Below, in pieces: positions 24,265 through 37,519 of a DNA stretch of 64,000 bases. The DNA lies in contig JARFIW010001364.1 in the NCBI GenBank assembly GCA_036346225.1, forward strand, positions 1,178,001 to 1,242,000. The letters are read 5' to 3'. Within the stretch, counting starts at the first letter, position 1; the number at the start of each line of letters is the position of its first letter. Made by a program: the position numbers and the translations under genes. The notes beneath the pieces were generated by a model that was given only the letters and a program-made list of their open reading frames with translations, had not been told where the DNA came from and ran no database searches. Source of the DNA: Platerodrilus igneus. Lineage: Eukaryota > Arthropoda > Insecta > Coleoptera > Lycidae.

Positions 24265-25329
24265 TTACGAATATTCCTTTGTCTATGGTTATTGACATCA
24301 TTAAAGAAAATTGGAATAAAATCAAGCCCTTTTGTAATATGTCTGTCACCCATAATCGCTCAAATGATTATGGATAATTTACTGTCGAGTGTTATACCAT
24401 ATGAGATGTTTTTCTTGGTAAAGTATGTGGACGATATCATTTGTTCGTTGTCAGTCCAATATGTTGACCAAACGTTAACAACATTTAATGATTTTAATGA
24501 TCACCTTCAGTTTACTTTTGAAATTGAAGTGGATGGTAATTTACTTTTTTTGGATGTTATGGTCATCAGAGATATATCTAATCATCTATTATTTGATTGG
24601 TACACTAAACCAACAAACTCTGGCAGATATCTAAATTTCCACTCCAACCATTCTTTTAAACATAAGGTAAACACGGTGAAGGCCCTACGATATCGAATTT
24701 GGCATATATCAGACACACAGTTTATTGAGAAAAATAAGAAATTATTGATTGACACTTTAGTAAACAACGGTTATCCAAAGGGAGTGTTGCATAGATTGAT
24801 TTATGGCAACTTCTTAAAAGTAAACTCTACAGAAGTTGAAATTACGTACAAGAAGCTTCCGTATATACAGAAGTTATCTCCACTTTTAGTACGATTACTT
24901 AAACAATCTAAGATTGCTATTGTCTACGAATACTATTTTTCCATCCAGAATTTGTTTACCAAATTAAAGGATCGTACTCCGAAATTGTTAAATAGTAATG
25001 TTGTCTACAAGATCACGTGTAGTTGCAACAATAGTTACATTGGTCAGACTAGCCAGTGGCTAAAGAGTCGTTTAACCCAGCACAGGAGTGATTGCAGGAT
25101 AAACTCCAATAAATGTGCGTTGTCCGCTCATGTTGCGGCAACCAATCATACACCATTTTTCGATGACACCATCACTTTGGAGAATGAAACCAATTACAAA
25201 ACTAGGCTTTTCATCGAGTCTTTTTATATTAATAGTGAAATTAATACTATCAATAATAAGATTGATATTGATAGGGTGCATAACGTCTATTCTGCTTTAT
25301 ATAGTAATGACATTTTTAAACAACGTTAA
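24226..25329 (+). pseudogene. Penelope-type reverse transcriptase / GIY-YIG endonuclease
   Basis: The coding remains start in the hairpin arm with LNVASLFTNIPL, equivalent to the SLFTNIP motif-A block; the catalytic Asp position reads Asn. After a frame change at about 24290 and an apparent deletion of the A-to-B spacer, one open frame runs to 25329. It has LSPIIAQMIMD (motif B end), KYVDDII (catalytic YVDD near 24424) and LLFLDVMVIR. Then come DWYTKPTNSGRYLNFHSNHS, and a GIY-YIG domain (VVYKITC at about 25000, SYIGQTSQWLKSRLTQH from about 25033). The frame has no ATG at its start (TTG). The RT would be inactive; the nuclease domain looks intact. Confidence 0.88.
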
Positions 25330-25750: not shown

Positions 25751-26062
25751 ACAGGGCGTCCCAAAAAAGTGTAGCATACCAAAGTTTTGTTTTTCTTATG
25801 GAAGACTCTGTATTTTATTGTATTTTTGGATTGTAAGTAAAAAATGAGATAAACTCTCTTAAACAAGTCCTATACCTAAACATTGTAGTTACCGAGATAC
25901 TTTGATTTTTCGTAAATTTGAAAGTCTAAAAGAAAAGTGTATAACTCCCAAACAAATACATTTATCCAAATCCAATTTTAACTATAAATATTAGACCAAT
26001 AATAGAAATTATCGTTGTATTTAAAGTTAACGAAAATTCTACTGAGTGTCCAAAATAATAAC
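25751..26062. repeat. Left part of a dispersed repeat used as target by the Polinton-like element
   Basis: It starts ACAGGGCGTCCCA. The complementary motif GGAACACCCTGT closes at 37508-37519, on the far side of the 11.4-kb element. The ACAGGGTGTCCC style is common at the ends of short non-coding repeats in arthropod genomes (recalled, not checked). The interior has no gene. Confidence 0.5.
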
Positions 26063-26289
26063 AGTAGAGGAAAATCACGCAACCCACGCCCACATTTCCT
26101 CCAGCATCCACATTTCCTCACACATCTCGACCAAATTTACATGTAAGTTCCCATAAGGATGAAATGTGGAGATGAATCTCATCCTTGCTTTCTCCTTGCT
26201 CTCCTCCTTGCTCGGACACACCCACAACCATTTTGATTACGTCGCACCCGCATTCTTTCCACCCGCGAGATAAATCTTTCTCCACATTT

Positions 26290-26640
26290 CCACCCACAAG
26301 ATAAACCTATCTTGTTTGGTATCAATTAATATTAGATTTTTCTTAGTACCCAAATCTCTTGAAATTTTTCAGATCGCATCATCCCCCAGGGAGCTACCCT
26401 GATTTTACGATTTTTTTATTCCTAACATTTTGAACCAAAATAGTTTTCTTCGTCTAATCAATGCATCTTTTGAGATAAACCTATCTTGTTTGGTATCAAT
26501 TAATATTAGATTTTTCTCAGTACCCAAATCTCTTTAAATTTTTCAGATAGCGCCATCCCCCAGGGAGCTAACCCAATTTTAAGATTTTTTTGCTGGTAGC
26601 GATTTCTGACCGTCCTTATAAATTTTTTAGTCATGCAATA
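26290..26640. repeat. Subterminal repeats, left arm (2 units)
   Basis: Two copies of a unit of about 100 bases with GATAAACCTATCTTGTTTGG and CCCCCAGGGAGCTA, at about 26296-26400 and 26470-26580. A third, worn copy lies near 29.51-29.60 kb. Confidence 0.8.
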
Positions 26641-26870
26641 CATCAAACTAACCTAGAATTTTATGTAGAATCCGAATCTGTAAATAAATTTAAAATAGGA
26701 CCACCCCTTACCATTTTACACACACCCTCTAAATTATAACCCTCCTGCAGCTCATACCTTAAAGAAAATTTAAAAACCATTCTTAAAACTTTTTATTACA
26801 GACAATTTTTACTAATACAATTTAAATTTGTAAACCACATTTCTAAATACATATTCACAATTTTTCATTT

Positions 26871-27491
26871 TCAACCTAGAACTTCACATATCGGCTTATA
26901 CTTATTAATATTTATTTCTAAATAGAGCACCTTTTCCAAACACCAACCGGACCCACATGTTTCAAATTCCTCTGGTTTTGTTCGCATGGTTTCGCTTAAG
27001 ACCTCGTACATATTTTCCATATTACTAGAAGACGTTATAACCACATTTTCTATGTTAAAGGATTTCACATCGGTAGTATCTTCCCGCATTTTGTTGTAAA
27101 CGCCGTAGAGTTCGCAATAGACTTTTACTGTTGTATGTTGTATTCTTTTTTTATTAATTAATCGAATAAATCGCTCTTTCTGCTTCCAAAGGAACTCGGG
27201 CACTCCATCGGCGACACTGGCATTCTTTATGCGATAGCTAGCCATACGGTTGTTAAACGCTGTGCTAACCATTTCTACACAATCGTCGCTAGTAGCGGTA
27301 ACTGATGCATTTTTATGTCTGTTGCTTCTTAAGTGTACGGCATAGGTAGTCTTTTCCATTTCGAAATCGCATACTTTACACATATTACGTGGTTGTTTCG
27401 TACAAGGCCCTTTAACAGCTGGTGGAGCTGAACGTTTACTGCTTAATGACATACCGTGCTGTTTTTCCTTGTGTCGTTGTAAGCTCTCCAT
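26871..27491 (-). CDS. Zinc-finger ORF of unknown function (left-arm copy, intact)
   Basis: From the ATG at 27491 it encodes 206 residues, starting MESLQRHKEKQHGMS. The upstream in-frame GTG start is ignored. Residues about 43-63 hold CKVCDFEMEKTTYAVHLRSN followed by RHK, a C-X2-C...H-X5-H arrangement like a C2H2 finger; a half finger (QRHKEKQH) lies at the N-terminus. The rest is helical and charged (VPEFLWKQKERFIRLINKKR) and ends CEVLG at a stop. The basic finger suggests nucleic-acid binding. From memory, similar N-terminal blocks precede Maverick-type polymerases in insect genomes; that is unverified. The right-arm copy is broken. Confidence 0.7.
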   Translation of the reverse strand: MESLQRHKEKQHGMSLSSKRSAPPAVKGPCTKQPRNMCKVCDFEMEKTTYAVHLRSNRHKNASVTATSDDCVEMVSTAFNNRMASYRIKNASVADGVPEFLWKQKERFIRLINKKRIQHTTVKVYCELYGVYNKMREDTTDVKSFNIENVVITSSSNMENMYEVLSETMRTKPEEFETCGSGWCLEKVLYLEININKYKPICEVLG

Positions 27492-27589
27492 TTTAGTACA
27501 AACCAAAATCCGCACTATAAGACTTTGGTTAAACTTGTAAGCGAACTAACTTATAACTAAAAGGTATACTCTTGCGTACCTGCTTTATG

Positions 27590-27669
27590 TACCCTATAAA
27601 ATGCAAACCGAAGGTTTCCGAAGACACCCGAACGAAGTTGAGGATTCAGCGGGGAACTAAATGACGTCA
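27590..27669 (-). promoter_or_regulatory. Probable promoter of the zinc-finger ORF, left arm
   Basis: On the minus strand a palindromic TGACGTCA (27662-27669, a perfect CRE/ATF-type site) lies upstream of a TATA-like TTTATAGGG (about 27592-27600). That is about 100 bases before the ATG. The same arrangement is preserved in the right arm. Confidence 0.55.
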
Positions 27670-28147
27670 TCTTTTGCCAATCCTTGCTGCTCGTCCAATA
27701 CATTTAGCACCAATGCATGCGCCCGGTTGTGCTTTGTCCATGCTGCGAATGCAGTTAGTATAGAAACACCGCAAAACGTTTTCTATGTTATACGGATCAA
27801 CAATTGCATCGCGTGCATATTAAAAATCTAAAAGGGTAGTAGCACACGCACACAAATTGTGTGCAAGGCGTGCAGTAAAAGATGCAGTGCTACTATAAAC
27901 AAAAACTTAATAAAAACACTTTAAACCTTTACTAAGGGAATACCAAACTTGTTGTTTACAGAATACTTACTAATAAAGCAATTTAATTTTAAATAACTTC
28001 TACGTCATATTTTAGGAAATGGTAGGCTTGAATATTTTCTAAATGAATCACCAAGCGAAAAGTATATGCATAGCGGTATTAAAATTAACCATTAATTTCC
28101 CATTTTTACGACCGTGATTAATTATAGATTAAAATTTAATTTGCTCA

Positions 28148-29330
28148 CGTTCGAGCTACCCGTAAACTAACATATTTTATAGTAACAGTGCGCTGTATAA
28201 TACATGCATACCTCTTCTCCGCGCTACTGCTATTTTTGTAGTTGCTTGAAAAAGTCACTCTCCTTTTTACTGTTAGGACCGATGCAAAGCACCATTTAAT
28301 ACTTTCTATAGCACATCGCACACTTTTTCGTCTGATAATTAAATTTTGCTTCTGTAGGCTGTTTTCACTTTAGCATAGCGGTCGGTCGCACGTAATGATT
28401 TCTAGAACCGGTAAGTACTCGATATCGCCCGAATAGAGAATTAGATGCTCGATGTCTGTCAACCTCCGATTCCCTCGTAAAAGGTAGAAAAGAAACTCGG
28501 TCAATCATCCATCTAACTTATACTTCGACCCGCTCCCGTTCTGATAATTTCCAAACATTTTTTAAACGACATGGGCTCAGAATTTTTAAACCTTCGAGGG
28601 ATCTATAAGTCGTAATCAATTACACGTTTGAACTCTCCGTAAACTAACTATGCGCTGTATAATACATGCATACCGCTTCTCTGCGCTACTGCTATTCTTG
28701 TAGTTGCTTGAAAAAATCAGTCGCCTTTTTTACTGTTAAGATCGCTGCAAAGCACCATTCTATACATCCTTTAAAGGTATGGCACATCGCGCACTTTTTT
28801 GTCTGATAATTAAATTTTGCTTAGGTAGGCTTTTACACTCTCGCATATTTAAACATCTAATACGATTGATTAACCACTTTGGATTATTCTAACGGGAACC
28901 GCCATACATTTCGCCGCACCGTTCCTTTTGAATCCAACGGTCCTATGGGCTTCCACACACTAACACCTAACGTATCTTTCCTACTATTTGTTAAACAAAA
29001 ACTACCGGCGTCGCCATGTCCGTATGCGGACGTAAGCAGATGTTTGTGGATGTGTACGAGAATATGTAACCATATACATTAATCAGTCTAAGCTATTTTA
29101 TTTAGTCCACGAAAACTATTATTTTTTCTAAACCACAATTAATAATCGCCGTTATAGATTTAACATTTCTACCATTACCCAATGACTGGTGCTACTACAT
29201 GGAAACTTTAATTTCTTATTGGAGAAAATCCTTATTCTCCCACGCGCTGTTGCATTGTTGCATGCCCACCCCTTTTGAGGATATATGCTCGTTATAGGTT
29301 GTAGCATCCGCGGTTTTACTTAACTACACT
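28148..29330 (-). pseudogene. Decayed second copies of the arm ORFs, left arm
   Basis: At 28.40-28.50 kb a minus frame retains EHLILYSGDIEYLPV, clearly related to KHLILYLDGIEHLPV of the 83-residue ORF. At 29.21-29.33 kb the sequence matches the middle of the 30397 ORF, including GAATAAGGATT and a CTACAACCTATAA block. Two direct repeats (28148-28385 and 28623-28845) share AATACATGCATACC and GTCTGATAATTAAATTTTGC. Together they show an ancestral tandem duplication of an ORF pair followed by decay of one pair. The rest of 27670-29875 has nothing else I can name. Confidence 0.65.
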
Positions 29331-29875
29331 TCGTGAGACCCTTTTAATCTTTTTAATCGTGTCTTTCTCGCTTACAATACAGTAGGACTTAGCCCTACTA
29401 CCAACAAATTATAATACTAGATACCCATTAAATTCGTCTTTAATTTTCCCTACAACTTTTTTTTGTTGACATGCGGTATATTATATTTATTATCCGCGGG
29501 GTAGGCACTCTTTTAAGATAAATATATTTTGTTTGGTGTCAACTAATATTAGATTTTTCTAGGGAGCCCAAATCTGTAAATAGATTTTAAATAATTCCAC
29601 CCCATACAAAGTTACGCCTTTTAAAGACTAATTTTTGCCCATCTTTATTTAGCTACATTTTTAAAACCCTTTTTTCGTTACCCAAGACATATGTTTTAAT
29701 CAACTATTTCCCTAGAAATCTAAAACCGATGTGTCCCGCGAACACCACGTGGAGATATCACGTATACTCTGCCCACCTGGATAGAAACAGGAAGGATTTG
29801 GAAGGTGAGCGAAGAACTTAAAAATTATGGAATTTAAAAACTAATATATACAATAGATTTACAAAATCTATACAA

Positions 29876-30127
29876 CTATCTTAGATTTATATCTTTATGC
29901 CCCCCATGCGTAGATTGATATGCTTCCAGGAGGATGTTACGCTTGTCATCTTCGCTCGGTAAACTAATTTTACTAATAATCTGTGTGTACAAATCGTGTA
30001 TTTTTACTCCGAATACATACACCGGCAAGTGTTCAATACCATCCAAATAAAGAATTAGATGTTTGGTGACTATTAACTTCCGCATCCCTCGTGTACGCCC
30101 TAGACACATCCCTGGTGGTGATGTCAT
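29876..30127 (-). CDS. Small ORF of unknown function, 83 residues (left arm)
   Basis: Starts MTSPPGMCLGRTRGMRKLIV and continues VTKHLILYLDGIEHLPVYVF and KIHDLYTQIISKISLPSEDD; it ends DINLR. No membrane segment or known motif is seen. Translation is identical in the other arm, which may reflect recent duplication and not selection. It follows the 30397 ORF in the same direction, as if co-transcribed. Confidence 0.55.
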   Translation of the reverse strand: MTSPPGMCLGRTRGMRKLIVTKHLILYLDGIEHLPVYVFGVKIHDLYTQIISKISLPSEDDKRNILLEAYQSTHGGHKDINLR

Positions 30128-30396
30128 AGCCTTTTATAAATAAAGAGCAATGTAATACTATTCTAAAATTTTTATTCTGACATTATACATAAGAAAATTT
30201 AAAAAAAAATGTAATGCCAAGCATGGAGTCATTTAAACTTAATTTTAATACAAAGTTATGCATAGAAGACAGTCCTTTTTAGGTTTGTTTGGAATGGTTT
30301 TAATTTTATCTAATTTTATTCGCAGCTTAAAATTTAAATCGACACCAAAGTCCTCTATCTCCTTTTCTAGTCAATAGTTTGATACATAGACACCGT

Positions 30397-30760
30397 CTAG
30401 GTTTTCGAATTGTAAAATGTACCGAAGTTTGCCTCTATATATAGAAAGTCTTTGATTCCACCGACAACCAGATCCATTCCTTCGTGTAATTCTTGCAGCT
30501 TGTGACAATCTTTTAATCGCGGCTCCCCCACTATATCCTGCATACGTATCTTGTTAGCTTGATCGACTTCTTCTTGTCGGTATTGGAGGAAATCCTTATT
30601 CTCCCACTCACCATTACGTAGTTGCAAGTCCACTACTTTTGGAAATATATGGCTGTTATAGGTTGTAAGACCCTCGGTTTTAAATGATCCGAAAGGTTCT
30701 TTACTAGGCAAATATACAATGTTTAACGGAACCCCTTTGCGTGTGGTGTACGCCAAGGTT
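30397..30760 (-). pseudogene. Unknown ORF, 5'-truncated at the arm boundary (left copy)
   Basis: 119 residues open, including TRKGVPLNIVYLPSKEPFGS and the charged block WENKDFLQYRQEEVDQANKI, ending FGTFYNSKT. The annotated start is not real: the first residues of the right-arm version (MADNIDDLRNAG) are missing because the arm ends here. It reads through the TAA that interrupts the right copy at 32760, so it is the better 3' part. Confidence 0.6.
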
Positions 30761-32466
30761 TCTCAACTTTTTGGAAATAAAGTGAAACCTACAAATGAGC
30801 GATTTGGATTATGGCTGTCGGCAGAAAATATGTGCAACAATAATCTGGTGACCGATATTGGTAATATTTGTTATGTCAAAGGCGAACAGATGCTGACTGG
30901 TGGACTACACACACCAATTACAGAACCATTTTGGGACAATATAATGTTGGTTAAAATTTGCGACCTTTCTGACACCGAACAAACATCTGCAAACAAAAGG
31001 ATGTTTATCCTAAAAAAAGAAATTTGTGGTGCATTTAACAGCTATCTACGAAGAAAGTTCGACCGATTTGTTTCCGCTAGGCGTGGTGTTAAAGCTAAGC
31101 TTCCGTTTTCTCTGGGAAGCACTAACAAGATGAGCCAGAGAGTAAAAGAAATTATCGAAAAAGAACACCTCGAATGCATTAATAAAAAATTCCAAAATCC
31201 TATGTGTTCCATACAAAGTGGAACTAGCAGATGTTTAGTTGGAAACTTTATTGGAGGAACTGCCAGATATATTAGACGAACTCGAAAAAGATTATTTCTA
31301 TCTTTTTGACATGGATGTAATCCCAGATTTTGCAGGCATTTTTAGCAAGATGGAGATGTGTAATTATTTAACTACAAAGCATAACTTTTGCTATAAGGGA
31401 GAATACGAAGAAAAGTGTGATATTATAGTTGACAACGATAAAACTGCGGGGATTGATTGTTTAACATGGCTAACAACCAATGTAAGAATTAAGATATACA
31501 GCAAATTTGTATGTCAGATAACAAGTCCTGGTGTTAATAAACAACTCGGCAATCATATACTAGATTTTTTACGTTGTCCAGATGTACGTTTAAGGGAAAC
31601 ATTTGCGTCTACTTTGGTCAAACAACATGGTATTACGCGATTGGATTCGACAATATACAACTGTACAATTGGAAGCTATGTCAGTGCGGAACGGGTGTAT
31701 AAACCCTTAAAAGACTGTTTAACCTTATTGGAAGATAGTAAGTTATACTTCCTAAAGGCGCCAATATACTCGGTACCACGTGCCAAAATGTGGAGTAAGC
31801 TATCGGTCAAGGTACAAAATAGCTGCTGTTTAGTGTATAATAACCTACTACAGTACGTGTATTGGGGGAATGGTAATACAAAGAAATTGACGGGCTTGCA
31901 AATTAAGTTGTCCGAACAACTAGTGGAAAGAGAAAAATTGATAAAGTATGTGCTTTCGGCTTTTAGTTTTAACTATTTACCTGTAAATTATTTGGAGATA
32001 GTAGAGGAAAAAGATAGCCAAGATAAAATAAAAATCTTAAACAAGTGCTACATTAAAGCAGGTAGTACATATTTTACACAATCTGCAACACCATATTCTA
32101 CAATTTCAAAAGAAATAGTCATTTCAGAATTGGGTTTGATAGATACGCTTAACATTCGCCCAGAGGTTGTACGACAACGCGTAAATATTGGCAGTAAACT
32201 CTATCCGTTTACTGCTACAATACGCGAACAAAGATGTGTTAGACAAAGAACATCTTATTAGAGAAAATGAGGAAGAAATAAAAGATTATTTTATGTGCCG
32301 ATAGACTGACTTAGCTACATCTGGTTTCTACAAGCTGTATGCATTTGTGGTTAGTAAAAAAGACTCTTTTAGTTATCCAGGCGTCCTTGCGAAAAAAGAT
32401 GGTACTGAATCCGTATACTTTTTAAAAAGTTATTCTAAAACGTTTTTATCAAAATGGCAGATAACA
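30761..32466 (+). pseudogene. Core gene of unknown function, frameshifted and 5'-truncated
   Basis: One long coding region fills the core in at least three frames. The first (to 31309) includes KPTNERFGLWLSAEN, MLTGGLHTPI and KLPFSLGSTNKMSQRVKEII. The second (31239-32261; it has a TTG, the first ATG is at 31311) has DFAGIFSKMEMCNYL, VRIKIYSKFVCQITSPGVNK, ITRLDSTIYNC and SCCLVYNNLLQYVYWGN. The third continues to a stop at about 32466, with FYKLYAFVVSKKDSFSYPG, and overlaps the next ATG. Frame changes fall near 31235 and 32240. The N-terminus is lost at the arm junction; the ATG at 30719 lies in antisense arm DNA. Size would exceed 560 residues. I do not recognise the family. Confidence 0.7.
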
Positions 32467-32860
32467 TAGACGACCTAAGGAATGCAGGTTTCGTAACCTT
32501 GGCGTACACCACACGCAAAGGGGTTCCGGTAAACATTGTATATTTGCCTAGTAAAGAACCCTTCGGATCATTTAAAACCGAGAGTCTTACAACCTATAAC
32601 AGTCATATATTTCCAAAAGTAGTGGACTTGCAACTACGTAATGGTGAGTGGGAGAATAAGGATTTCCTCCAATACCGACAAGAAGAAGTCGATCAAGCTA
32701 ACAAGATACGTATGCAGGATATAGTGGGGGAGCCGCGATTAAAAGATTGTCACAAGCTGTAAGAATTACACGAAGGAATGGATCTGGTTGTCGGTGGAAT
32801 CAAAGACTTTATATATATAGAGGCAAACTTCGGTACATTTTACAATTCGAAAACCTAGAC
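32454..32860 (+). pseudogene. Unknown ORF with its original start (right copy), interrupted by a stop
   Basis: ATG at 32454 in core DNA gives MADNIDDLRNAGFVTLAYTT, then enters the arm at residue 14-15. A TAA at 32760 stops it after 102 residues. The frame continues to about 32857 with ELHEGMDLVVGG and FGTFYNSKT as in the left copy. The ATG overlaps the end of the core gene by about a dozen bases, suggesting compact virus-like gene packing in the ancestor. Confidence 0.65.
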
Positions 32861-33129
32861 GGTCTCTATGTATCAAACTATTGACTAGAAAAGGAGATAG
32901 AGGACTTTGGTGTCGATTTAAATTTTAAGCTGCGAATAAAATTAGATAAAATTAAAACCATTCCAAACAAACATAAAGAAAGGACTGTTTTCTGTGTATA
33001 ACTTTGTATTAAAATTAAGTTTAAATGACTTCATGCTTGGCATTACATTTTTTTTTAAATTTTGTTATGTATAATGTCAGAATAAAAATTTTAGAATAGT
33101 ATTACATTGCTCTTTATTTATAAAAGGCT

Positions 33130-33381
33130 ATGACATCACCACCAGGGATGTGTCTAGGGCGTACACGAGGGATGCGGAAGTTAATAGTCACCAAACATCT
33201 AATTCTTTATTTGGATGGTATTGAACACTTGCCGGTGTATGTATTCGGAGTAAAAATACACGATTTGTACACACAGATTATTAGTAAAATTAGTTTACCG
33301 AGCGAAGATGACAAGCGTAACATCCTCCTGGAAGCATATCAATCTACGCATGGGGGGCATAAAGATATAAATCTAAGATAG
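33130..33381 (+). CDS. Small ORF of unknown function, 83 residues (right arm)
   Basis: Identical in translation to the left-arm ORF (MTSPPGMCLGRTRG...). It lies about 270 bases after the interrupted 32454 ORF in the same direction. Between them 32.87-33.12 kb holds only AT-rich DNA. Confidence 0.55.
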   Translation: MTSPPGMCLGRTRGMRKLIVTKHLILYLDGIEHLPVYVFGVKIHDLYTQIISKISLPSEDDKRNILLEAYQSTHGGHKDINLR

Positions 33382-33899
33382 TTGTATAGATTTTGTAAAT
33401 CTATTATATATATTAGTTTTTAAATTCCATAATTTTTAAGTTCTTCGCTCACCTTCCAAATCCTTTCTGTTTCTATCCAGGTGGGCAGAGTATACGTGTT
33501 ATCTCCACGTGGTGTTCGCGGGACACATCGGTTTTAGATTTCTAGGGAAATAGTTGATTAAAACATATGTCTTGGGTAGCGAAAAAAGGGTTTTAAAAAT
33601 GTAGCTAAATAAAGATGGGCAAAAATTAGTCTTTAAAAGGCGTAACTTTGTATGGGGTGGCCCTATTTAAAATCTATTTACAGATTTGGGCTCCCTAGAA
33701 AAATCTAATATTAGTTGACACCAAACAAAATATATTTATCTTAAAAGAGTGCCTACCCCGCGGATAATAAATACAGTATACCGCATGTCAACAAAAAAAA
33801 GTTGTAGGGAAAATTAAAGACGAATTTAATGGGTATCTAGTATTATAATTTGTTGGTAGTAGGGCTAAGTCCTACTGTATTGTAAGCGAGAAAGACACG

Positions 33900-35110
33900 A
33901 TTAAAAAGATTAAAAGGGTCTCACGAAGTGTAGTTAAGTAAAACCGCGGATGCTACAACCTATAACGAGCATATATCCTCAAAAGGGGTGGGCATGCAAC
34001 AATGCAACAGCGCGTGGGAGAATAAGGATTTTCTCCAATAAGAAATTAAAGTTTCCATGTAGTAGCACCAGTCATTGGGTAATGGTAGAAATGTTAAATC
34101 TATAACGGCGATTATTAATTGTGGTTTAGAAAAATAATAGTTTTCGTGGACTAAATAAAATAGCTTAGACTGATTAATGTATATGGTTACATATTCTCGT
34201 ACACATCCACAAACATCTGCTTACGTCCGCATACGGACATGGCGACGCCGGTAGTTTTTGTTTAACAAATAGTAGGAAAGATACGTTAGGTGTTAGTGTG
34301 TGGAAGCCCATAGGACCGTTGGATTCAAAAGGAACGGTGCGGCGAAATGTATGGCGGTTCCCGTTAGAATAATCCAAAGTGGTTAATCGGTCGTATTAGA
34401 TGTTTAAATATGCGAAAGTGTAAAAGCCTACCTAAGCAAAATTTAATTATCAGACAAAAAAGTGCGCGATGTGCCATACCTTTAAAGGATGTATAGAATG
34501 GTGCTTTGCAGCGATCTTAACAGTAAAAAAGGCGACTGACTTTTTCAAGCAACTACAAGAATAGCAGTAGCGCAGAGAAGGGGTATGCATGTATTATACA
34601 GCGCATTGTTAGTTTACGGAGAGTTCAAACGTGTAATTGATTACGACTTATAGATCCCTCGAAGGTTGAAGAATTCTGAAACCATTGTCGTTTAAAAAAT
34701 GTTTGGAAATTATCAGAACGGGAGCGGGTCAAAGTATAAGTTAGATGGATGATTGACCGAGTTTTTTTCTACTTTTTACGAGGGAATCGGAAGTTGACAG
34801 ACATCGAGCATCTAATTCTCTATTCGGGCGATATCGAGTACTTACCGGTTCTAGAAATCATTACGTGCGACCGACCGCTATGCTAAAGTGAAAACAGCCT
34901 ACAGAAGCAAAATTTAATTATCAGACGAAAAAGTGTGCGATGTGCTATAGAAAGTATTAAATGGTGCTTTGCATCGGTCCTAACAGTAAAAAGGAGAGTG
35001 ACTTTTTCAAGCAACTACAAAAATAGCAGTAGCGCGGAGAAGAGGTATGCATGTATTATACAGCGCACTGTTACTATAAAATATGTTAGTTTACGGATAG
35101 CTCTATAATT
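33900..35110 (+). pseudogene. Decayed second copies of the arm ORFs, right arm
   Basis: Mirror image of the left-arm relics: an ORF-1-like block at 33.95-34.05 kb and an 83-residue-ORF-like block at 34.77-34.86 kb (EHLILYSGDIEYLPV). Direct repeats lie near 34.40-34.62 and 34.87-35.10 kb. The 67-codon minus frame at 34174-34377 is identical in both arms but has no motif, and I do not call it a gene. The segment 33382-33900 holds nothing I recognise beyond one worn subterminal repeat. Confidence 0.6.
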
Positions 35111-35560
35111 AACCACGGTCGTAAAAATGGGAAATTAATGGTTAATTTTAATACCGCTAAGCATATACTTTTCGCTTGGTGATTCATTTAGAAAATATTC
35201 AAGCCTACCATTTCCTAAAATATGACGTAGAAGTTATTTAAAATTAAATTGCTTTATTAGTAAGTATTCTGTAAACAACAAGTTTGGTATTCCCTTAGTA
35301 AAGGTTTAAAGTGTTTTTATTAAGTTTTTGTTTATAGTAGCACTGCATCTTTTACTGCACGACTTGCACACAATTTGTGTGCGTGTGCTACTACCCTTTT
35401 GGATTTTTAATATGCACGCGATGCAATTGTTGATCCGTATAACATAGAAAACGTTTTGCGGTGTTTCTATACTAACTGCATTCGCAGCATGGACAAAGCG
35501 CAACCGGGCGCATGCATTGGTGCTAAATGTATTGGACGAGCAGCAAGGATTGGCAAAAGA

Positions 35561-35640
35561 TGACGTCATTTAGTTCCCCGCTGAATCCTCAACTTCGTTC
35601 GGGTGTCTTCAGAAACCTTCGGTTTGCATTTTATAGGGTA
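35561..35640 (+). promoter_or_regulatory. Probable promoter of the zinc-finger ORF, right arm
   Basis: TGACGTCA at 35561-35568 and a TATA-like TTTATAGGG at about 35630-35638, about 100 bases before the ATG at 35739. Conserved base for base with the left arm. Confidence 0.55.
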
Positions 35641-35738
35641 CATAAAGCAGGTACGCAAGAGTATACCTTTTAGTTATAAGTTAGTTCGCTTACAAGTTTA
35701 ACCACAGTCTTATAGTGCGGATTTTGGTTTGTACTAAA

Positions 35739-36360
35739 ATGGAGAGCTTACAGCAACACAAGGAAAAACAGCACGGTATGTCATTAAACCGTAAACGTTC
35801 AGCTCCACCAGCTGTTAAAGGGCCTTGTACGAAACAACCACGTATTATGTGTAAAGTATGCGATTTCGAAATGAAAAAAACAACCTATGCTGCACACTTA
35901 AGAAGCAACAAACATAAAAATGCATCAGTTACCGCTACTATAGGCGATTGTGTAGAAATAGTTAGCACAGCGTTTAACAACCGTATGGCTAGCTATCGCA
36001 TAAAGAATGCCAGTGTCGACGATGGAGTGCCCGAGTTCCTTTGGAAGCAGAAAGAGCGATTTATTCGATTAATTAATAAAAAAAGAATACAACATACAAC
36101 AGTAAAAGTCTATTGCGAACTCTACGGCGTTTACACCAAAATGCGGGAAGATACTACCGATGTGAAATCCTTTAACACAGAAAATGTGGATATAACGTCC
36201 TTTTAGTAATCATGAAAATATGTACGAGGTCTTAAGCGAAACCATGCGAACAAAACTCAGAGGAATTTGAAGCATGTGGGTCCAGTTGGTCTTTGGAAAA
36301 GGTGCTCTATTTAGAAATAAATATTAATAGGTATAAGCCGATATGTGAAGTTCTAGGTTG
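35739..36360 (+). pseudogene. Zinc-finger ORF (right-arm copy, broken)
   Basis: Starts MESLQQHKEKQHGMS and carries the same CKVCDFEMKKTTYAAHLRSN finger. A sequence change near 36200 introduces a stop (DITSF-stop at 36206), and a further frame change follows near 36250. Remains of the shared C-terminus (LEININ, CEVLG) lie at about 36.31-36.36 kb. Compared with the left copy several residues differ, showing the arms have begun to diverge. Confidence 0.75.
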
Positions 36361-36479
36361 AAAATGAAAAATTGTGAATATGTATTTAAAAATGTGGTTT
36401 ACAAATTTAAATTGTATTAGTAAAAATTGTCTGTAATAAAAAGTTTTAAGAATGGTTTTTAGATTTTTTTTTAGGTATG

Positions 36480-37220
36480 AGCTGCGGGAGAGTTATAATT
36501 TAGAGGGTGTGTGTAAAATGGTAAGGGGCGGTCCTATTTTAAATCTATTTACAGATTCGGATTCTACATAAAATTCTAGGTTAGTTTGATGTATTGCATG
36601 ACTAAAAAATTTATAAGGACGGTCAGAAATCGCTACCAGCAAAAAAATCTTAAAATTGAATTAGCTCCTTGGGGGGATGGCGCTATCTAAAAATTTTAAA
36701 GAGATTAGGGTAGCTGAGAAAATTCTAATATTAATTGATACCAAACAAGATAGGTTTGTCTCGTGGGTGGAAATGTGGAGAAAGATTTATCTCGCAGAGG
36801 GTATGTGTGTAATTTTGTAAAGCGTGGTCCTAGTTTAAATCTGTTTGCATATTCAAATTCTGTATAAAATTCTAGGCCAATTTAATGTATCGCATGTATA
36901 AAAAAATTTATGCGGACGGTCAGAAATCGCTACCAGCAAAAAAATCTTAAAATTGAGTTGGCTCCCTGGGGGATGGCGCTATCTGAAAAATTTAAAGAGA
37001 TTTGGGTACTGAGAAAAATCTAATATTAATTGATACCAAACAAAATAGGTTTATCTCGGAAGATGCATTGGTTAGACGAAGAAAACTATTTTAGTTCAGA
37101 ATATTAGCGGTTAAAAAAATTTTAAAATCAGGGTAGCTCCCTGGGGGATGATGCTATCTGAAAAATTTAAAGAGATTTGGGTACTAAGAATAATCTAATA
37201 TTAATTGATACCAAACAAGA
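36480..37220. repeat. Subterminal repeats, right arm (3 units)
   Basis: Three copies of the unit with CTCCCTGGGGGATGGCGCTA and GATACCAAACAAGATAGG, near 36.67, 36.96 and 37.14 kb, against two in the left arm. The extra copy is part of a direct duplication of about 290 bases that also contains ACGGTCAGAAATCGCTACCA. Confidence 0.8.
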
Positions 37221-37467
37221 TAGGTTTATCTCGTGAGTGAAAATGTGGAGAAAGATTTATCTCGCGGGTGGAAAGAATGCGGGTGCGACGTAATCAAAGT
37301 GGTTGTGGGGGTGTCCGAGCAAGGAGGAGAGCAAAGAGAGTGCAAGGATGAGATTCATCTCTACATTTGCTCCTTATGGGAATTTACATGTAAATTTGGT
37401 CCAGACGTGTGCAGAAATGTGGATGCTGGAGGAAATGTGGGTGTGGGTTGCCTGATTTTCCTCTACT

Positions 37468-37519
37468 AATGACATTTTCAAACGTTAATATCGTGCTCAT
37501 GTTAAATGGAACACCCTGT
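37468..37519. repeat. Right part of the interrupted target repeat
   Basis: Begins with the AATGAC hexamer after the Polinton-like terminus and ends GGAACACCCTGT, the inverse of the ACAGGGCGTCCC start at 25751. Confidence 0.5.

Follow-up and report, generated by a model that had tools for sequence, protein, structure and literature searches.

How can a mobile element come to consist of one of its halves and a mirror image of that half? The question is raised by an 11,405-bp element (positions 26063–37467) found in a 64,000-nt stretch of DNA of the beetle Platerodrilus igneus (Coleoptera, Lycidae; assembly GCA_036346225.1, contig JARFIW010001364.1, positions 1,178,001–1,242,000 of the forward strand), which was analyzed over its full length and is referred to below as the window. 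The results indicate, with high confidence, that mirror derivatives of half an element genome formed repeatedly in the family to which this element belongs, and that they are now located between target duplications. As to how they formed, the explanation towards which we lean is that the element is an integrated snap-back derivative, i.e. the outcome of recurrent fold-back synthesis on one-ended Polinton DNA followed by insertion.

Structure of the palindromic element

Comparison of the window with itself (blastn) revealed that region 26472–30760 matches the inverted region 36762–32495 (97.2% identity over 4,297 columns) and that region 26063–26730 matches the inverted region 37467–36796 (90.9% over 672 columns). 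This similarity is far above chance, and it confirms the near-palindrome proposed from the sequence in an earlier reading of this DNA (hereafter the original prediction), with arms of 4,698 bp (left) and 4,973 bp (right) flanking a 1,734-bp core. The difference in arm length is mainly due to one stretch of approximately 297 bp that is absent from the left arm. The arms differ by approximately 2.8%, with indels.

A single database protein of 782 aa (amino acids), P0016, matches, in colinear order, three open reading frames (ORFs), the last of which crosses the boundary between the core and the right arm. Since the core gene runs on into the right arm and its left-arm counterpart is cut at the arm boundary, the right arm can be identified as the native one and the left arm as its copy, as had been predicted.

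Copies in the genome, their ends and their junctions

The assembly (2.7 Gb in 1,723 contigs) was searched with parts of the element; because the best 40 candidates per query were scored, the numbers of copies given here are lower bounds. At least 58 match rows were obtained genome-wide with the right arm's inner 2 kb and at least 83 with the core, where 39 loci besides the window, among the 40 scored, showed 92–96% identity, nearly all of them over the first ~1,450 core bases. Twenty-two copies were sampled: 14 from the right-arm matches, mostly by rank (the window copy, C1629, C1023, C988, C1598, C1529, C295, C909, C325, C1577, C1370, C1030, C1706 and C1441), and 8 from the core matches (C1486, C500, C1099, C2, C791, C619, C1231 and C1043), chosen for differing end points or inverted pairs. 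Six of the latter eight were read over 0.3–1.9 kb near the center.

Left of the center, 16 of the 22 copies (10/14 and 6/8) carry part of the right half in inverted orientation, reaching beyond the terminal repeat; this share describes the sample rather than the family, given the way in which the eight core-list copies were picked and read. The single unusual recombinant envisaged in the original prediction thus gives way to many, no two of whose located junctions are alike. Some of the inverted pieces are short (249 bp in C1030, 435 bp, of ATPase type, in C1529 and 156 bp in C619). The snap-back layout, with one terminal half mirrored and, in asymmetric cases, an unpaired loop, was observed with both ends in the window copy, C1629, C988, C325, C909 and C1577, and in C1486, of which one side was read. 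Two further copies have a peculiar structure: C1441 (L036) is multiply folded, with the same core in several nested inversions, and C1370 (L009/L010) forms a palindrome with non-sister arms, the right end of which could not be located.

Both ends were in view in seven copies, and all seven carry AGTAG..CTACT termini and 6-bp target duplications. The duplications are identical in C1629, C1577, C988 and C325 (6/6 positions) and agree at 5/6 positions in C1598, C909 and the window copy, which is flanked by AATAAC and AATGAC (Table 1). In C909 they were read by eye (CCCTCG/CCCACG) at the outer CTACT of CTACTACT, since the script took the inner CTACT and scored 2/6. The chance of such a match is 0.0046 per copy. 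The palindrome lies between two like ends, as the original prediction required. Target duplications in 7/7 copies argue strongly against a mirror image produced by later rearrangement with outside DNA, and they are compatible with gap repair in place, which is discussed below.

The ends and the target duplications, together with genes for a type B DNA polymerase (PolB) and an ATPase in relatives, indicate that the family is of the Polinton type, as had been suggested. A relative with PolB on the other side, in line with the original prediction, is C1231. Its PolB gene lies beyond the hairpin shared by several copies (see below), reads away from it and is broken into 4 ORF pieces, one of which passes the PF03175 threshold (33.4 bits; cut-off 25.8). 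The gene is followed by tandem units that may be the terminal repeat. Among the best 40 PolB candidates, only C1231 adjoins a locus present among the best 40 core matches. This copy was also considered as proof of an ancestral order PolB–hairpin–core, an argument that was dropped, as the PolB side may also be the result of a template jump. The window copy contains only an ORF resembling the PolB N-terminal region (29% identity to the C1231 polymerase), and no A32-like ATPase was seen in it. Such an ATPase is encoded right of the hairpin in C909, C1529 and C295 (Pox_A32 scores of 19.9 and 26.9 bits in C909 and C1529, respectively, cut-off 22.8; nucleotide match in C295). The terminal repeats of vertebrate Polintons are given as 46–1,447 bp long (mean 402) in an excerpt of PMC8097293. 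The elements described here share with Polintons/Mavericks the AGT-type ends, the 6-bp target duplications and, in relatives, a PolB_2 or A32-like ATPase gene beside the hairpin. Unlike in the vertebrate elements of that excerpt (PMC8097293), their inverted arms reach ~4.7 kb, include coding sequence and vary from copy to copy.

The junctions are given below in window-equivalent coordinates, with the point at which the inverted arm ends before the slash and the point at which the native side starts after it. Nine were read by eye against the left- and right-source sequences, with no chance model for overlaps, and 8/9 show an overlap of 1–4 bp: the window copy, 32495/30761 (3 bp, GTT); C988, 33629/ATPase segment (3 bp); C325, 34551/31120 (2 bp, assuming one later C-to-T change); C1598, ~37240, in tandem repeats/32308 (4 bp); and, each with the hairpin as the second point, C500, 33727 (3 bp), C909, 35267 (4 bp), C1629, 34583 (2–3 bp) and C1099, 32012 (1 bp). 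The ninth, C1486 (32273/~90 bp left of 30761), has no overlap and a 2-nt insert; C1577 (35951/31918) was unreadable. The remaining junctions are those of C619 (~35900/hairpin), C791 (31405/near hairpin) and C2 (30995/between the hairpin and 30761) and, less exactly, C1030 (piece joined at 32079) and C1529 (turn at the hairpin). Among the sampled copies, all located junctions differ from each other.

These data bear on the possibility that the palindrome is an assembly artefact or a pair of ordinary long terminal inverted repeats. Fold-back chimeric reads do occur in long-read data; nevertheless, an artefact would have to reproduce ~2.8% divergence with indels between the arms, a target duplication in the flanks and relatives with other arm lengths and junctions, and we regard this explanation as negligible. 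No complete relative in which the same arms are ordinary terminal repeats was seen among the copies read; both arm length and core vary.

Trees were built from arm pieces of ~0.75 kb in two regions, A and B, in which 5 and 4 copies, respectively, could be tested. The two arms of the same copy were sisters with strong support in 3/5 cases in region A (window copy 100/100, C988 96/87, C325 100/96) and in 2/4 cases in region B (window copy 100/99, C909 100/99). The short arms were rejected as a single clade by the approximately unbiased test (p-AU 4e-8 in A and 4e-5 in B), as were the left-strand arms (3e-6; 7e-100), both groups having been picked after inspection of the trees. Such patterns suggest that either the palindromes form anew or their arms are homogenised. 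One palindrome that arose once and then spread would account for the inverted piece in most sampled copies; however, the differing junctions and the rejected short-arm clade make this very improbable, even though arm homogenisation could mimic the latter result.

The central hairpin and the origin of the mirrored halves

Eight copies (C500, C1231, C619, C909, C1629, C1099, C1529 and C295) carry at their center a short, almost perfect inverted repeat, with a stem comprising AAAAATTGATAGGTTAGGTCAGC and more, and a short loop; in C1099 the pattern is matched on only one of the two sides of the stem. Four of these hairpins were folded as DNA, giving z values of −11.5, −16.4, −11.4 and −13.5, and none of 200 shuffled sequences was as stable. 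The pattern, with up to 4 mismatches, was not found in the window. The hairpin is situated ~0.4 kb to the left of 30761 where the core gene adjoins it; its neighbor in C909, C1529 and C295 is the ATPase segment instead. The sequence left of the hairpin differs among all eight copies. Beyond the stem, bases of the right side are mirrored without gaps, to an extent measured in seven copies: 29 in C1629, 28 in C295, 18 in C500, 6 in C909 and C1231, and 0 in C619 and C1529. C791 no longer has the stem-loop, and 84 bases are mirrored in it at 92.9%. It looks as though synthesis turned at the hairpin, continued briefly and then jumped.

Such a turn is part of the snap-back route. Linear element DNA would keep its right terminus only, and its 3′ end would fold back on its own strand, near 30761 in the window copy and, in several relatives, at the hairpin ~0.4 kb further left. 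Pairing of 1–4 bp would prime synthesis at an internal site (32495 in the window), from which the right half would be copied out to the terminus, giving the molecule a complete second end and leaving the core as an unpaired loop. Conversion to double-stranded DNA would then provide two like ends, and an integrase could insert the product with a 6-bp target duplication. The route builds on observed features: the layout of the element, its ends with their target duplications, junctions that differ between copies, the small overlaps at them and the bases mirrored at the hairpin. It would further involve extrachromosomal DNA, priming by fold-back rather than gap repair, and a polymerase and an integrase that acted on this DNA. 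To our knowledge, Polinton replication and the DNA form that integrates are understood mostly by analogy. The original prediction, that a replicating DNA switched template and then integrated, agrees with the two like ends and their target duplication, the copied left arm and the PolB-bearing relative; what does not hold is a single event, as the process was recurrent.

Several observations weigh against the snap-back route. An inverted piece beyond the terminal repeat is missing from 6/22 copies: in C1598 the terminal repeat alone is inverted (228 bp), and no inverted piece was present in the sequence examined of C1023, C1706, C295, C1231 and C1043. The left side of C295 is occupied by other genes, together with a diverged inverted piece of hairpin-side sequence. 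In region A the arms of C1370 were rejected as sisters (p-AU 0.004), perhaps reflecting two elements or an intermolecular jump, and those of C1629 were unpaired in the best tree, with pairing not rejected (p-AU 0.12). In region B, C988 pairs weakly (75/36) and C325 is unpaired, again with pairing not rejected (p-AU 0.26). Finally, the outer 1.5 kb of the window arms is 3–4 times more diverged than the inner 3 kb (4.7% vs 1.3% mismatch, p = 3e-11; 3.9% in the outer part without tandem repeats, p = 1.7e-5). This pattern is not expected from a single act of copying and would require either later arm-to-arm conversion or an origin by gap repair.

In gap repair, an element would be cut or broken in place, and both ends, with their stubs of terminal repeat, would invade a template at its right terminal repeat, copy inward to different points and be joined by microhomology. 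This would account for the two free break points per copy, the small overlaps and the retained target duplications, and it explains the divergence step of the window copy better than fold-back synthesis does. For the Galileo transposon, extensions of the terminal inverted repeats that include ORF pieces have been described, and template switching in gap repair has been proposed (excerpt of PMC4168063). However, the step is clear in the window copy and visible in C988, which is more alike toward the center, and is not general (the profile is level in C1370 and C909 and, except for the outermost bin, in C325, and C1577 and C1629 have no clear trend). Moreover, gap repair alone leaves unexplained the hairpin common to the center of eight copies, some with 6–29 mirrored bases. 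We consider it a serious though doubtful alternative.

Alternatively, a full palindrome might have formed first, its halves meeting at the hairpin as they would in a replicating dimer that ends in a hairpin, and part of its center might have been deleted later. Central deletion stabilizes long palindromes. C1370 and C1441 are indeed mirrored through the center (88–89%), C2 and C791 nearly so, and deletions would give the same arrangement of end points. In all seven measured copies with a hairpin, on the other hand, the break lies beyond the stem on one side, at a distance of 0–29 bases, which would imply one-sided loss, and full palindromes are few (2/22 sampled), the arms of one of them, C1370, not being sisters. 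This order of events is unlikely.

As far as tested, the elements are Polintons by class, and their mode of formation appears analogous to that of snapback genomes of adeno-associated virus (AAV). Symmetric recombinants are also known from adenoviruses; the literature search did not turn them up. AAV snapback genomes may be symmetric or asymmetric, with an unpaired loop in the asymmetric type, and a template switch has been proposed for non-unit-length genomes (excerpt of PMC8235507). In both systems half of a linear genome is copied into its own mirror, symmetrically or asymmetrically; the AAV molecules, however, are encapsidated parvovirus DNA (PMC8235507, same excerpt), whereas those studied here are chromosomal Polinton-type insertions with target duplications. 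Foldback/Galileo elements resemble them in their variable, extended terminal inverted repeats, which may include ORF sequence, but the Galileo excerpt (PMC4168063) describes a P-type transposase and a 7-bp target duplication, in contrast to the 6 bp and the nearly whole mirrored half found here. In yeast, inverted repeats close to a break serve as primers of hairpin synthesis and of inverted duplication, a similar use of repeats near an end, although the excerpt (PMC10622511) concerns chromosomal repair in mutant laboratory strains and not the DNA of a mobile element itself. Among the titles and abstracts listed in searches of the open-access PMC literature, no description of palindromic Polinton derivatives was found.

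A bolder and rather improbable proposal is that snap-back is the regular route by which the family regains an integrable genome. The hairpin next to the core gene would then act like an origin, where the putative Rep-like/OB-fold protein of that gene might introduce a nick and one-ended molecules would fold back and rebuild their second terminus; palindromic genomes rescued in this way would make most integrations and could yield double-stranded RNA. Integrated copies that record products of fold-back synthesis or repair would form a natural archive, readable junction by junction, which makes the question testable from genome data. Palindromic copies also connect Polintons with the defective snap-back genomes found in parvoviruses, and in an insect they would offer a ready source of self-complementary RNA.

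The core gene and the surrounding sequences

The features of the element are summarized in Table 1. The first ORF of the core gene is chimeric, its first ~13 codons being left-arm antisense sequence, so that it was created by the junction.

Table 1. Features of the palindromic element and its flanks (window coordinates).
Feature	Position	Strand	Basis
Left target-site duplication AATAAC	26057..26062	.	5/6 with right AATGAC
Left arm, inverted copy of right arm	26063..30760	-	blastn, 97.2% + outer 90.9%
Left terminal repeat zone, starts AGTAGAGG, tandem units, inner limit approximate	26063..26870	-	
214-aa ORF, PolB-N-like	26871..27515	-	29% over 132 aa, E 2e-9, vs PolB N-terminal region of C1231
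Truncated left-arm copy of C-terminal part of ~780-aa protein	30397..30762	-	ORF cut at arm boundary
ORF, N-terminal part of ~780-aa insect protein	30719..31309	+	P0016 residues 4–147, 52%
3-bp microhomology GTT, left-arm/core junction	30758..30760	+	read by eye, compared with both source sequences
Single-copy core	30761..32494	+	blastn self-comparison and genome matches
ORF, middle part of ~780-aa insect protein	31239..32261	+	P0016 residues 160–480, 57%
ORF, C-terminal part of ~780-aa insect protein, core to right arm	32454..32762	+	P0016 residues 607–702, 36%
Right (native) arm	32495..37467	+	blastn self-comparison; comparison with other copies
PolB-N-like ORF, right-arm copy	35715..36206	+	
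Right terminal repeat zone, tandem units, inner limit approximate, ends CCTCTACT	36500..37467	+	
Right target-site duplication AATGAC	37468..37473	.	5/6 with left AATAAC

The named relatives of the core protein come from insects (Cacopsylla, Schistocerca, Planococcus, aphids and planthoppers), and one is filed under a bacterial metagenome-assembled genome, Baumannia, which is an insect symbiont. Together, proteins P0016–P0028 form an insect family of ~780 aa without a Pfam name, in which the first half is possibly Rep-like/TBP-like and the end perhaps OB-like. No Pfam family scored above the cut-off in 8 window ORFs or in 4 core-protein relatives. All hits of a profile search against PDB sequences were at chance level, and no relative was found in viral_contigs with the core ORF. 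A first AlphaFold2 model was weak (predicted local distance difference test score, pLDDT, of 58). At 32211–32217, the window copy lacks ~110–130 bases that are present in many other copies. Left of the hairpin of C295 (L021 3277–4522), two ORFs resemble what we take to be psq-type helix-turn-helix proteins.

Right of the element, the window contains two inverted-repeat units, 37660–38621/39347–40312 (93% over 967 columns) and 40274–40930/41336–41985 (91% over 665 columns), with TA microsatellites at some of their borders; neither matches the element arms among the self-matches listed. Direct repeats 44765–45794/48259–49563 (91–97% identity) are present near copy C1023 too, and parts of the direct repeats found at both ends of the window (1–2225/61555–63738, ~85%) match the surroundings of C295, C1023, C1577 and C1629. 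An ORF of 345 aa (24292–25329) has a reverse transcriptase match in Pfam of 18.6 bits, under the cut-off of 29.6.

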